Source: an uncultured archaeon A07HR60
GTDB lineage: Archaea; Halobacteriota; Halobacteria; Halobacteriales; Haloferacaceae
DNA length: 64,000 bases
NCBI GenBank assembly: GCA_000496235.1
Contig: KI543231.1
Span: forward strand, 390,746 to 454,745
Direction of reading: 5' to 3'
The position numbers and the translations under genes are program-made. Of the stretch, positions 5,333-43,311 are shown one piece after another. Below the pieces are notes generated by a model that worked only from the letters and a program-made list of their open reading frames with translations, had not been told where the DNA came from and ran no database searches. How positions within the stretch are numbered: position 1 is the stretch's first letter; every line of letters starts with the position of its first letter.

Positions 5333-7095
5333 TGGTTTGCCTCCAGTGGGTCCGCGTCGAGCGTCCGGCCGATCTCTTCGGCCAATTCGCCGGCCTTGAA
5401 CCGGACACCATCGTATTTGTTAATTCGCTCTACACGTGTGAGGGTGTCGTGCTCCACCAGGTCCGCGAACTGGCCTGTCGCGTTACACTCCACCACGATT
5501 ACCTGCTCGGCAGCCGCCACCTCGTCACTAATATCTGGCCGCGGATAGACGTACGGTGTCGAGATAACGCGGACATCGATGCCGTCCGTCTCGAGATACT
5601 CTAGCGCCTCGACGAGCGCGCCCTCGTTGGACCCCCAGGTGATGACCAACGTCTCTGCGTCGGGATTGCCGAACTCGCGATACTCGAGTGACTCCTGTTC
5701 GCGGGCAGACACCACCTTCTGAGATCGCTTATCCACCTGCTTGACACGCATTCCACGCTCTTCTGTCCGTCGGCCGAGTTCATCGTGTTCTAGTCCCGTC
5801 GACATGTGGGCACCGCCACCGGTGCCTGGGAGCGCTCGTGGTGACACACCGTCCTCGGTGACCTCGTGGGGTTTGAATTGGTCTTTGTCGGTCTGGTGAG
5901 ACCCGATGGATTCCTCGTCCACCAGCTTCCCACGGTCCACCTCGACGGCGTCCATGTCGAACGCCTCGGGCTCGAACGTCTGTTCTGTCACTGCCATCGA
6001 CAAATCGGCGGTGAGAAACACCGGTGTCTGGTATTTTTCTGCGAGATTGAACGCCTCCACGGTTTTCCAGAAACACTCGTCGATTGTGGTCGGCGCCAAC
6101 ACGAACCGGGGCACCTCGCCGTGGCCACCGTGCACCATCGCGTTAAGATCTCCCTGTTCCTGTTTGGTCGGCATCCCCGTAGACGGACCCGACCGCATCA
6201 CGTTACAGACGACCAGCGGTGTCTCGGAGGTGGCCACCAGTCCTAACGTCTCGGCCATGAGGTCGATTCCAGGGCCGGAGGTCGCTGTCATCGCTCGGGC
6301 GCCGCCACGAGCAGCGCCGAGGGCCATGTTGATGGCGGATAACTCGTCTTCAGACTGCAAAACGTGTCCACCGTAGCGGTCGATCCGGCCGGTGAGATAC
6401 TCCATCACCTCGGTCGCTGGCGTGATGGGGTAGCCGGAGTAAAACCGGCACCCGGCCGCAATCGCGCCCATCCCGATCGCCTGGTCGCCGTTCAACAGAA
6501 CGTAATCGGCGTCGGTAGTTTCCAGTTCATACGCGCTTTCGGAGCCGTACTCCTTGGCGACGTACGCCTGCCCCTCTCTGGCGGCCTCCTTGTTGTTCGA
6601 GACGAGTTTCTGGCCCTTATCAGCAAACCGCTTTTCCAGCGCCGAATCAAGATTCTCGATTGGAAAGCCGGTCACCGCACAGGCGGCCCCCAGTGCAACC
6701 ACGTTTCGCATGATCGCCCCGCCAGCCTCCTCGGCAATTCGTTTGAGCGGGACGTCCAGCCCGATCATCTCGTCGGGAATCTCCACGTCCGCCATCGTCG
6801 TTCGTTCACCGTCGTAGACGACTACCGACCCTTCGTGAAGTTCGTCAAGATTCTCATCGATCGTCCGCGGCGTGAGCGCGATGAGCACATCGAGTCTGTC
6901 GACCACGCTCTGGACTTTCTCTGTGGATGTTCTGACTTTGTACGCCGTGTAGCCGCCGCGAATACGTGACGCGAAGTCTTTGGAAGTGAAGACGTGTCGT
7001 CCCGCCCGAGAGAGCGCCTGCGCGAAGATCTTCCCCGTGGAGTTGATCCCATCGCCGGCTTCGCCGCCGATTGCCCAGTTGAAATCCTCTGGCAT
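5329..7095 (-). CDS. korA: 2-oxoacid:ferredoxin oxidoreductase, alpha (gamma-alpha fused) subunit
   Basis: A 588-residue subunit with the gamma domain (GGEAGDGINSTGK from about residue 10) fused ahead of the alpha domain (YSGYPITPATEVM near residue 220), followed by the C-terminal transketolase-like domain. This fusion is standard for haloarchaeal KorA. I placed the start at the ATG at 7095 (MPEDFNWAIGG). A TATA-like run (TCTTTTTATC, about 7122-7132 on the minus strand) lies some 30 bases upstream, and AAGGA precedes the ATG. The frame is open to an earlier ATG at 7149, but that would include the promoter. It is followed by korB with a 4-base overlap. Confidence 0.93.
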   Translation of the reverse strand: MPEDFNWAIGGEAGDGINSTGKIFAQALSRAGRHVFTSKDFASRIRGGYTAYKVRTSTEKVQSVVDRLDVLIALTPRTIDENLDELHEGSVVVYDGERTTMADVEIPDEMIGLDVPLKRIAEEAGGAIMRNVVALGAACAVTGFPIENLDSALEKRFADKGQKLVSNNKEAAREGQAYVAKEYGSESAYELETTDADYVLLNGDQAIGMGAIAAGCRFYSGYPITPATEVMEYLTGRIDRYGGHVLQSEDELSAINMALGAARGGARAMTATSGPGIDLMAETLGLVATSETPLVVCNVMRSGPSTGMPTKQEQGDLNAMVHGGHGEVPRFVLAPTTIDECFWKTVEAFNLAEKYQTPVFLTADLSMAVTEQTFEPEAFDMDAVEVDRGKLVDEESIGSHQTDKDQFKPHEVTEDGVSPRALPGTGGGAHMSTGLEHDELGRRTEERGMRVKQVDKRSQKVVSAREQESLEYREFGNPDAETLVITWGSNEGALVEALEYLETDGIDVRVISTPYVYPRPDISDEVAAAEQVIVVECNATGQFADLVEHDTLTRVERINKYDGVRFKAGELAEEIGRTLDADPLEANQ

Positions 7096-39456: not shown

Positions 39457-40248
39457 TCACATCTCAGCCAATCCAGCTACTCCGAGTGCCTCTTCGACAC
39501 TGCAGTCGTCGTTGACGACCGCGGAGACAGCCCGCGTGATCGCTTCAGGATCGTCGTGCTGGAAAATCGACCGGCCCATGGAGACACCCGCGGCGCCGCC
39601 GTCAATGGCGCCACGGACCATCCGCACCGTCTCAGTATCACTGCCTTTCGACCCGCCGGCGATTACTACGGGGAGCCGCGTAGATTCGGTGACGTGTTCG
39701 AAGCTATCCCCATCCCCGGAGTAGCCCGTCTTAACCACGTCTGCACCCAATTCCTCTGCGAGTCGCACGGCCTTCCCCAGAGCTGCGGGGTCGTCACCTG
39801 CCACACCCGGGCCTCGAGCGTACGCCATCGCGAGTACCGGCATTCCGTAGTCGGCCGCCTCAGACGTGAGTGTCGCGAGATTTTCGATCTGGTCTGGTTC
39901 GTACGAAGAGCCAACGTTGATATGGAGTGAGACTGCGTCCGCGCCCGCTCGAATCGCATCCCGGACGCTGGCGGTCAGCCGTTTGTCCTGCTCATCAGGC
40001 CCGATCTGCGTCGACCCGTTCACGTGGACGATATATCCGGCATCGTTTTTGTTGTCATGGACCCGCGGAGCGATTCCACGCTGGGTGAGGACGGCGGTGG
40101 CCCCGCCGCGCGTCACGCTATCGATCGTTTCCTCGATCTCTTTGAGCCCAGCTACCGCCCCCATTGTGAGCCCGTGATCCATCGGGACCACCAGATAGCG
40201 GCTGTCTGAAGAGATTCGGTCGAGCCGCGCGTCGCATCCTGTTGTCAT
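39457..40248 (-). CDS. aroA': 2-amino-3,7-dideoxy-D-threo-hept-6-ulosonate synthase
   Basis: A 263-residue TIM-barrel aldolase (class I, DeoC/FbaB family) making the precursor of dehydroquinate in archaeal aromatic biosynthesis. Signature pieces are VVPMDHGLTMG near the N-terminus, DAVSLHINVGSSYE, VLAMAYARGPGV, DVVKTGYSGDGDSF (Schiff-base Lys in this strand), and the phosphate-site segments VVIAGGSKG and AAGVSMGRSIFQ. A related family, fructose-bisphosphate aldolase class I, cannot be excluded by sequence alone, but the neighbouring dehydroquinate synthase II and trpCBA make the aromatic role the better reading. The start is ATG 40248 (MTTGCDARL). It lies 50 bases downstream of trpA. Confidence 0.9.
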   Translation of the reverse strand: MTTGCDARLDRISSDSRYLVVPMDHGLTMGAVAGLKEIEETIDSVTRGGATAVLTQRGIAPRVHDNKNDAGYIVHVNGSTQIGPDEQDKRLTASVRDAIRAGADAVSLHINVGSSYEPDQIENLATLTSEAADYGMPVLAMAYARGPGVAGDDPAALGKAVRLAEELGADVVKTGYSGDGDSFEHVTESTRLPVVIAGGSKGSDTETVRMVRGAIDGGAAGVSMGRSIFQHDDPEAITRAVSAVVNDDCSVEEALGVAGLAEM

Positions 40249-40298
40249 TGTTCGTCTATCTCCCACGAGTTACTGGCTTGTACGTGACTGTTCATCCC

Positions 40299-41159
40299 CT
40301 AATTCGCTTCGGGTTCAGGCGCCCGTTGCGTGTACCCGCGCGCGGCGCCCTCGACTAACTCTGTGGACAGCGCTTCCAACTGGTCGGCTACCTCGTCTGT
40401 CGGGTGACCTTCCTCGGCCCCACGAGCGACTAATTCGACGAGCGCCGACCCAACAATAATCCCATCTGCTCCGGCTCCGACGATGCGTTCTGAGTGGGCC
40501 CCCTCAGAAATGCCGAACCCGACCGCCTTCGGCACCGACCACTCGGATAGTCGCTCGAGACTCTCGTCGGTTTGGTCTGACACGTCAGTCCGTGCACCGG
40601 TCGTCCCGAGCCGGGCCTGGACGTACACGTATCCGGACACCTGTTCCATGATCCGGCGAAGTCGGTCTCCCTCCGTAGTCGGTGCGACGATGAACACCAG
40701 ATCGAGGCCGAATTCGTCGCAGGCGGCCCGTAGCGGCGACGCTTCTTCGGCGGGCAGATCCGGGACGACGAGCCCCTCAATTCCCGCGGTGGCCGCCCGC
40801 TCGACGAATGCCCGGGGTTGCTGCTGGTCACTGGTGCCGTACTGGTAGATGAGATTGTAGTAGGTCATACACACCAGTGGCACCTCGACGTCAACCTCTT
40901 CGACGAAGCAGAAGTACGCTTCCGGCGTGATCCCCGCCTCCAGCGCGCGGACGATTGCACCCTGGATCGTGGGGCCTTCCGCAATCGGCTCCGAAAAGGG
41001 TAATCCGAGTTCGATCACGTCGGCTCCGCCCCGCTCCAGCGCTTCGACGTACGCCATCGAGGCCTCGTAGTCGGGGTCACCCACGGCCAGATACGGGACA
41101 AATGCCGGACCGTCCGCGAAGGCGGCGGCGATTGCCTCACTGTTGCCCGTGGTGGCCAT
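40299..41159 (-). CDS. trpA: Tryptophan synthase, alpha subunit
   Basis: A 286-residue TIM-barrel lyase that cleaves indole-3-glycerol phosphate and channels indole to TrpB. It has [17 protein letters not shown] at the N-terminus, the catalytic Glu in [16 protein letters not shown] (with the second acid in the following DGP-type loop region), [25 protein letters not shown], and [11 protein letters not shown] plus [12 protein letters not shown] as the phosphate site. The length is slightly above the usual ~268. Its start overlaps the trpB stop by one base (TAATG), so it is translationally coupled to trpB. Confidence 0.95.
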
Positions 41160-42412
41160 TACAGGCCACCCTCGAACATGGACATGTCGGGGGCTGACTC
41201 AATATCGCGTTTTTCGGTCTCCTCGATCACCGTCTGCAGGTCTTTGTCACCGCGGCCCGAGACGTTGAGCAAGATCACCTCACCCAACTCGTCGTGGTAT
41301 TCTTCGAGATAGCCGAACGCGTGAGCCGTCTCCAGAGCTGGGATGACCCCCTCGGCGGTGGAGAGCCGGTGGAATCCCTCGAGAGCGGCGTCGTCGTCGA
41401 CGTTCACTGGCTCCACTCGACCGGTGTCGACGAGATGTGCCAATTCCGGGCCGACGCCAGCGTAATCGAGGCCCGCCGACACCGAATGTGACTCCATGAT
41501 CTGGCCGTCACTGTCCTGGAGTAGTTTCGTCCGAGCGCCGTGAAGGACCCCTTCGTCACCCGTCGACAGTGACGCCGAATTTGGCGCCACACCCGTCTGT
41601 TCGTTCACCTGGAGCGAAGATCCCCCCGCTTCGACGGCCCGGAGTGTCACGTCGGGGTCGTCGATGAACGCGTCGAACATGCCCATCGTGTTCGAGCCGC
41701 CGCCGGCACAGGCGATCACCTCGTCTGGCAACGCGCCCGTCTTCTCCAAACACTGCCGACGGGCCTCGTCGGCGATCACCGAGTGGAAGTCCCGCACCAT
41801 CGTCGGGAACGGGTGTGGGCCGACAATCGACCCAATAACGTAGTGGGTGTTCTCGACTGATTCTGCCCAGTCACGCATCGTCTGGGAGATGGCCTCTTTC
41901 AGTGTGCCTCGACCGGCCGTGACGGGGGTGATCTCGGCACCGTTCGTCTTCATGCGGAAGACGTTGGGCCGCTGCCGATTGATATCCGTCTCGCCCATGT
42001 AAATCTCGCAAGGCATGTCCAGATGCGCCGCCGCCATCGCAGTGGCGGTCCCGTGTTGGCCGGCGCCCGTCTCCGCGATGATCCGTTCTTTGCCCATGTA
42101 CTTCGCCAACAGCACCTGCCCGAGGGCGTTGTTCAGCTTGTGAGCGCCTCCGTGGAGGAGGTCTTCTCGCTTGAGATACACCTCACGGTCGTACCGGTCA
42201 GACAGGTGATCCGCTCGCCCGAGCGGTGTGGGTCGGCCGCCGAAATCGCGGATCCGCTCCCGGAACTCGTCGAGAAAGCCGTCTTCGTTGTTTTTGACGT
42301 ACCGTTGATACGCGTCGTCCAGCTCCTCGATTGCCGGCATGAGCGCCTCCGGCACGTACTGGCCGCCATACTCTCCGAATTTGCCGTCGTCTCGTGATTC
42401 CATCTTACTCAT
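41159..42412 (-). CDS. trpB: Tryptophan synthase, beta subunit
   Basis: A 417-residue PLP enzyme that condenses indole with serine to tryptophan. The catalytic lysine is Lys92 in [13 protein letters not shown]. The phosphate loop is in [15 protein letters not shown], and [13 protein letters not shown] is the conserved communication segment. [14 protein letters not shown] is the usual N-terminal motif of the TrpB1 type. The ATG at 42412 overlaps the trpC stop by 4 bases (ATGA); an alternative ATG three codons in is less likely because coupling would be lost. The stop overlaps the trpA start by one base. Confidence 0.96.
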
Positions 42413-43179
42413 GATGTGTGCTCCGTGGTAACGAACTGTCGCGTATTTGCTTCAATGTCTCCATCCATGATAGCAGTCCCGATTAACAATGCGTCGGCGC
42501 CGGCCTCACGCAACTGACTCACGTCCCCCTGCGTGGAGACACCACTTTCCCCGATTAGCGTCACGTCGTCGGGAGCTGCTGGCGCCACCTCGCCAAACGT
42601 GTCCAAGTCAACTTCCAGGGCTGCGAGGTCACGATTGTTCACCCCGATAAAAGTGGTATCTGCTGCAACTGCGGCTTCCAGTTCGGCCCTGTCGTGGACT
42701 TCGACGAGCACCTGAAATCCGCGCGCCCGAGCCGCTGTTACTAACCCATCGAGGTCGTCCACAAAGCGAGCAATCAGCAAAACAACGTCGGCTGCGACGG
42801 TATCTAACTGCTCTTTGCGGAGAAGGAAGTCCTTGCGGAGTACCGGAACGTCGACGGCACGCCGAATTGCCGTCAGCGTCTCGACATCACCGCCGAAGTG
42901 GTCGGGTTCCGTTAGTACAGACAACGCCGCCGCGCCTCCGTCGACCATCTTGTGTGCCAAATCGACGGGGTCGTCATCCCGAACGCCCGTCGTCGTCGGA
43001 CTCGTCGGCTTTATTTCTGCAATGACTGGCACGCGCCTGTCGGCCGCCGCCGCCTCAAATGCCGTGGCCAGCGACCGCGGATCCACGGCGACCCGCTCTC
43101 CGTCACCACGGAGCCCCCGCCCTCGGGCGGCTGACAGTATCGATTCTACCGCAGGCGCCACATCCTCCCGATTCCTCAT
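42409..43179 (-). CDS. trpC: Indole-3-glycerol phosphate synthase
   Basis: A 256-residue TIM-barrel enzyme closing the indole ring. Signature segments are [14 protein letters not shown] (catalytic Lys), [23 protein letters not shown] (second Lys), [19 protein letters not shown] and [10 protein letters not shown]. It is the first gene of the trpCBA operon. The start is ATG 43179 ([13 protein letters not shown]), which lies about 30 bases after the TATA-like element and 3-4 bases after the expected transcription start, so the mRNA is close to leaderless. Three TGTAC boxes lie between the TATA region and the start. trpD, trpE, trpF and trpG are not in the window. Confidence 0.95.
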
Positions 43180-43182
43180 TAT

Positions 43183-43208
43183 TGTACAATAATGTACGCT
43201 TTTGTACA
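43183..43208 (-). promoter_or_regulatory. Triple TGTAC operator at the trpCBA promoter
   Basis: TGTACA at 43183-43188, TGTACG at 43193-43198 and TGTACA at 43203-43208 recur at exactly 10-base steps, one helical turn. The second and third also form an inverted repeat, ATGTAC-N6-GTACAT. The TATA-like TTATGTA (minus strand) overlaps the outermost box, and the start codon is 4 bases past the inner one. TGTACA is the recognition core reported for the methanogen tryptophan regulator TrpY, so a tryptophan-responsive repressor is likely. No such regulator is adjacent. Confidence 0.7.
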
Positions 43209-43311
43209 TAAGGGTTGTGGGGACGGCCCACGCAGTCGGGGCCAGCTTTGAGTCACGCAAGCGGCTACAGGGCACCGACAGCGGTTAGTCTCCGGCGGCC
43301 ACAGGCGATGC

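Follow-up and report, generated by a model that had tools for sequence, protein, structure and literature searches.

The window, meaning the whole 64-kb stretch of DNA that was analysed, carries on its minus strand a trpC-trpB-trpA-aroA' cluster, and the interval between a TATA-like element and the trpC start codon is occupied by an array of three TGTACA-type boxes. The features, in the order in which they are read on the minus strand, are as follows.

43207..43219, minus strand: BRE/TATA-like element CACAACCCTTATG, with the cross-species consensus CGCAAGYCTTATG, recognised from the window letters and the aligned loci
43203..43208, minus strand: putative operator box 1, TGTACA, at -29 to -24 from the trpC ATG; aligned in 80 loci
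43193..43198, minus strand: putative operator box 2, CGTACA on the trpC strand (consensus GTNCA), at -19 to -14
43183..43188, minus strand: putative operator box 3, TGTACA, at -9 to -4, with three bases between it and the ATG
42409..43179, minus strand: trpC, indole-3-glycerol phosphate synthase of the haloarchaeal type (NF041303, 392 bits, cut-off 380)
41159..42412, minus strand: trpB, tryptophan synthase beta (TIGR00263)
40299..41159, minus strand: trpA, tryptophan synthase alpha (TIGR00262)
39457..40266 (start codon tentative), minus strand: aroA', an aldolase of the 2-amino-3,7-dideoxyheptulosonate synthase type; an open reading frame, last in the cluster

The aroA' gene was named by its sequence and by its place after trpA, like that of OE1472F in H. 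salinarum (PMC4162585). An intra-operon box-like pair, TGAACAGTCACGTACA, at 40279-40294 on the minus strand, 13-28 bp before aroA', was not conserved among 22 relatives and was discarded.

On the trpC strand the region runs CACAACCCTTA-TGTACA-AAAG-CGTACA-TTAT-TGTACA-ATA-ATG. On the plus strand, from 43177 onward, CAT (43177-43179, the trpC ATG) is followed by TAT, TGTACA (43183-43188), ATAA, TGTACG (43193-43198), CTTT, TGTACA (43203-43208) and TAAGGG. The boxes start at 43183, 43193 and 43203, in exact 10-bp steps, and three bases intervene between the inner box and the ATG, so that the window letters confirm the original prediction of three TGTAC boxes at exact 10-base spacing between the TATA-like element and the trpC start. 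The pattern TGTACN5TGTACN5TGTAC is expected 0.01 times in the 64-kb window when up to two mismatches are allowed, and the exact triple upstream of trpC is its sole place there, the second listed match being its reverse complement. The single hexamer TGTACA occurs in 18 copies in the window, as against 7.4 expected from shuffles, and most of these copies lie outside the trp region.

Box 1 overlaps the TATA-like element at the latter's downstream end. Because that element ends at box 1, while box 3 is three bases from the ATG, the array spans the whole initiation region, and the trpC transcript, judged by the distance from TATA-like element to ATG, is probably leaderless or nearly so. Attenuation or another RNA-structure mechanism at trpC was set aside, since this distance leaves almost no leader.

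Conservation was followed in 80 trpC loci of other genomes, obtained by scanning the genome collection with the TrpC of the window and drawn nearly all from haloarchaea, together with Marine Group IV archaea. A recognisable form of the block CGCAAGYCTTATGTACAGATACGTNCATTAGTGTACAGTAATG precedes trpC in every one of the 80, and the information content is concentrated where the array lies: 1.41 bits per base at -40 to -1, as against 0.21 at -60 to -41 and 0.10 at -110 to -61. At least two boxes with no more than one mismatch are present in 79 of the loci. The finding that would have spoken against the original prediction, loss of the boxes in close relatives, did not materialise. The geometry itself is conserved: box pairs in the 80 promoters are spaced by 20 bp in 77 instances and by 10 bp in 46, with 2 at other distances, whereas each spacing is expected only about 0.01-0.04 times from the rest of the trpC loci. 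The middle box is the loosest across species, its consensus being GTNCA, in which the third base is free to vary, and the spacer letters T-13, T-12, A-11, T-2 and A-1 are likewise conserved. Searched by pattern, the exact triple was found in 8 of 60 related genomes and its reversed control in none; a simple repeat of TGTAC, in two genomes, accounts for three of the places, and trpC, trpD and trpB promoters make up the remainder.

The boxes mark further tryptophan genes in haloarchaea. In the genome of the window the other exact TGTACAN4TGTACA site lies directly upstream of trpD, with a box-like TATACA 20 bp further on, giving boxes at 0, 10 and 30. The same exact double box has 22 sites in 147 haloarchaeal genomes, of which 17 precede trpD and one precedes a gene of the sodium:neurotransmitter symporter family (a Na+ symporter), the remaining four having no obviously related gene downstream. 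With a sequence-only model of the array (R1), applied to 59 genomes, trpC or trpB accounted for all 30 best matches, and looser triple searches added trpB as operon head (L148, L010) and tryptophanase (L173, L177, L360). The tryptophanase (tnaA) arrays were seen only in genus g51 (L173, L177, L262-L268, L360), where they precede the start codon by about 50-80 bp and have the TATA-like element downstream of them; other genera have at most single box-like sites there.

When the triple pattern was searched with up to two mismatches in 247 Halobacteriota genomes, 65 genomes matched, as against 12 for the reversed control. Among 28 non-haloarchaeal sites that were read, 18 precede tryptophan or aromatic biosynthesis genes, namely trpC, trpD, trpE (or a TrpE/PabB-like gene), trpB2 (in methanogens, L342 and L353) and the aroA' aldolase; ten of these targets were named by NCBIfam, four by Pfam and the remainder by eye. 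Another six precede genes for a TrpP-like ECF transporter component or its ATPase. Of these, L361 matches Pfam TrpP (PF17099) and L356 matches ABC_tran, while L334, L335, L341 and L359 were called TrpP-like by resemblance only, L335 and L359 giving no Pfam match. The remaining four sites include one inside a gene (L322). That searches by pattern alone land on tryptophan genes argues for a tryptophan regulon that extends over both haloarchaea and methanogens, and, as read from these sequences, one putative operator marks genes of both tryptophan synthesis and uptake in the two groups. The suggestion that the boxes are a conserved archaeal trp regulon signal is thus upheld, with sites at trpD, trpB and transporters as well as at methanogen trpE, trpB2, aroA' and TrpP genes. 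The L-lactate-permease-like gene that a phased array precedes in one methanogen (L333, G182:C1:1254429), also among those remaining four sites, would be a surprising member of such a regulon.

The candidate binder is TrpY. The query was an approximate haloarchaeal HTH-ACT protein; its match is a single gene, 65-86% identical, present in all 96 complete haloarchaeal genomes sampled, so the anticipated TrpY-like protein is universal in that set, although it was not found in the window's own metagenome-assembled genome (MAG), which is 82% complete. Against NCBIfam NF053754, 'TrpY family transcription regulator', the haloarchaeal protein reaches 237.8 bits (cut-off 180), and the family occurs in 239 of the 247 Halobacteriota genomes and in the H. 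volcanii control genome. None of the solved structures matches TrpY by sequence. The aligned members from array-bearing families all share one putative recognition helix, DRR(V/A)VD; in two Archaeoglobi-like families with essentially no arrays (f21, f24) the same position reads DR(K/N)VV. Some other families have the DRR(V/A)VD helix and no detected arrays, so that the correlation between helix and array is one-way. Haloarchaeal trpY has no trp neighbour, and autoregulation there was rejected, the array being absent from those trpY promoters that could be read. In Archaeoglobi-like genomes (L309, L310, L314) trpY is divergent from trpC-trpD and TGTACA boxes are absent from the intergenic region, which has GTATA-type repeats instead. 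Apparent second copies of TrpY in methanogens matched only weakly, in most cases through the ACT domain of a longer protein, and were not retained.

A different candidate regulator, a 43-residue ribbon-helix-helix-like open reading frame upstream of trpD (L121, about 6070-6200, G000:C9) with a near-box at its start, was also considered. It was rejected as an autoregulated repressor because it has 12 copies in this genome and is patchy in relatives (22 of 60 genomes). The copy near trpD is followed by a masked stretch, and the frame probably travels on an insertion element, which inserted itself some 1 kb upstream of trpD.

The array is kept before tryptophan genes in many haloarchaea and methanogens and is therefore very probably a switch that turns tryptophan production off; a tryptophan-responsive repressor of the TrpY family is likely to have these three boxes as its operator. 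TrpY would consist of an N-terminal DNA-binding part and a C-terminal ACT domain. When tryptophan is plentiful, TrpY dimers, with tryptophan as the presumed ligand, would occupy the palindromic TGTACA boxes side by side, perhaps cooperatively, on one face of the helix and in steps of one turn. Bound TrpY would then cover the DNA from the TATA-like element to the start codon and keep off TBP/TFB or RNA polymerase, so that trpCBA-aroA' is off; when tryptophan is scarce TrpY would release the boxes. The same operator on trpDFEG and on tryptophan uptake genes would make of these a single regulon in haloarchaea and related methanogens.

Published RNA evidence on haloarchaeal trp control is mixed. 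In H. salinarum deprived of aromatic amino acids, all seven trp genes of trpCBA-OE1472F and trpD1FE1G1 are induced, OE1472F 12.5-fold, as are three Na+-dependent transporters (PMC4162585). For H. volcanii, tnaA is described as inducible by tryptophan and the trpCBA promoter as 'not tightly regulated' (PMC13147458). The H. salinarum data also bring in a competitor for the role of TrpY: LrpA2 rises 14.9-fold without aromatic amino acids and was proposed as a regulator (PMC4162585), so that the operator could respond to tryptophan through another protein, such as this Lrp/AsnC-type factor (LrpA2, Trh1). Such a view gains from the fact that haloarchaeal trpY is neither autoregulated nor linked to trp, and from the T. 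kodakarensis TrpY homologue, which does not control trp (PMC6737238). The induction of LrpA2 fits equally well, however, with its being a target. The same arrays occur, moreover, in methanogens, where TrpY is the widespread candidate, and TGTACA is reportedly the TrpY box; we regard a binder other than TrpY as unlikely.

Much less probable still is that the conserved block is no operator at all and belongs instead to the core promoter or start site, as an extended feature made up of BRE/TATA plus initiator. The position of the block between TATA-like element and start codon of a probably leaderless promoter would suit such a feature, as would the conserved spacer letters. General promoters are not expected, however, to repeat a palindrome at 10 bp, pattern-only arrays are almost entirely confined to tryptophan genes, and the boxes are placed at 0, 10 and 30 at trpD and, at tnaA, upstream of the TATA-like element. 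That the array is chance, or ordinary low-complexity AT-rich promoter sequence, might be argued from the over-representation of TGTACA in the window, but this reading is already refuted by the rarity of phased triples (0.01 expected in the window), by the contrast between 8 genomes and a reversed control of 0, and by the retention of the block in 80 loci.

With a TrpY-family repressor as the favoured reading, the haloarchaeal system would belong to the TrpY/TRP box kind by virtue of boxes over tryptophan-gene promoters, TrpY binding being putative. In Methanothermobacter, trpB2 is also a target, and the TRP box is said, in work of Xie and Reeve from 2005, to read TGTACA. Likenesses to the M. 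thermautotrophicus system (trpY-trpEGCFBAD; trpB2) lie in the TGTACA-type palindromic boxes over trp promoters, in the presence of a TrpY-family protein in complete haloarchaeal genomes and in targets that include trp genes and trpB2, the latter here in methanogens. The two differ in that M. thermautotrophicus trpY is divergent from trp and autoregulated via shared boxes, whereas haloarchaeal trpY is unlinked and its own promoter box-free; in that the haloarchaeal array is a strict 10-bp-phased triple reaching from TATA-like element to start codon, probably with a leaderless mRNA; and in that haloarchaeal targets also include the Na+ symporter and, in one genus, tnaA. Bacterial TrpR and MetJ similarly are metabolite repressors whose operators cover the core promoter with palindromes in tandem or in phase, but the proteins are unrelated and the basal machinery here is archaeal. 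Tar (TK0271), the aromatic amino acid regulator of Thermococcales, likewise controls archaeal trp and aromatic genes but is an activator and a different protein. The Haloferax p.tnaA is, similarly, a tryptophan-responsive haloarchaeal promoter, although tnaA box arrays were seen only in genus g51. For M. thermautotrophicus, repression of trp by TrpY via TRP boxes between trpY and trpE is documented (PMC6737238), and no further literature on haloarchaeal TrpY was found beyond that source. Nor was any found that joins haloarchaea and TGTACA in this context, or that reports this system in haloarchaea earlier, the search covering the open-access literature.

Control of amino acid synthesis in archaea is known in few cases, those found for tryptophan being TrpY in one methanogen and Tar in Thermococcales. 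A single operator type is now placed across a whole phylum, with a universal haloarchaeal protein named as its putative binder, and the system is directly testable in Haloferax or Halobacterium. It also concerns a pathway from which a standard laboratory tool, the tryptophan-inducible tnaA promoter, is taken. Box position, from which we infer a steric block at trpC, would likewise suggest activation at tnaA; it is possible, if doubtful, that TrpY in haloarchaea has a dual, position-dependent role, repressing biosynthesis from between TATA and start codon and activating tnaA from upstream of the TATA-like element in response to tryptophan. If that were true, one ancient regulator would toggle the cell between making and degrading tryptophan.

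A few other arrays were seen. Those of the 10-bp-phased TGTACA type stand before methyltransferase-like genes in two haloarchaeal families (L156, L168). The sequence TGTACATTG(C/T)AAGACAAAGAAGTACA is kept in three genomes of genus g47 (G055:C1:639015, G079:C1:870982 and G146:C1:603099). The array GCTACAAATACGTACAAACGCGTACA occurs at L150 (G128) and at G085:C1:563216; at L150 it lies directly before a small MarR-like regulator gene and is possibly an unrelated, autoregulated system.
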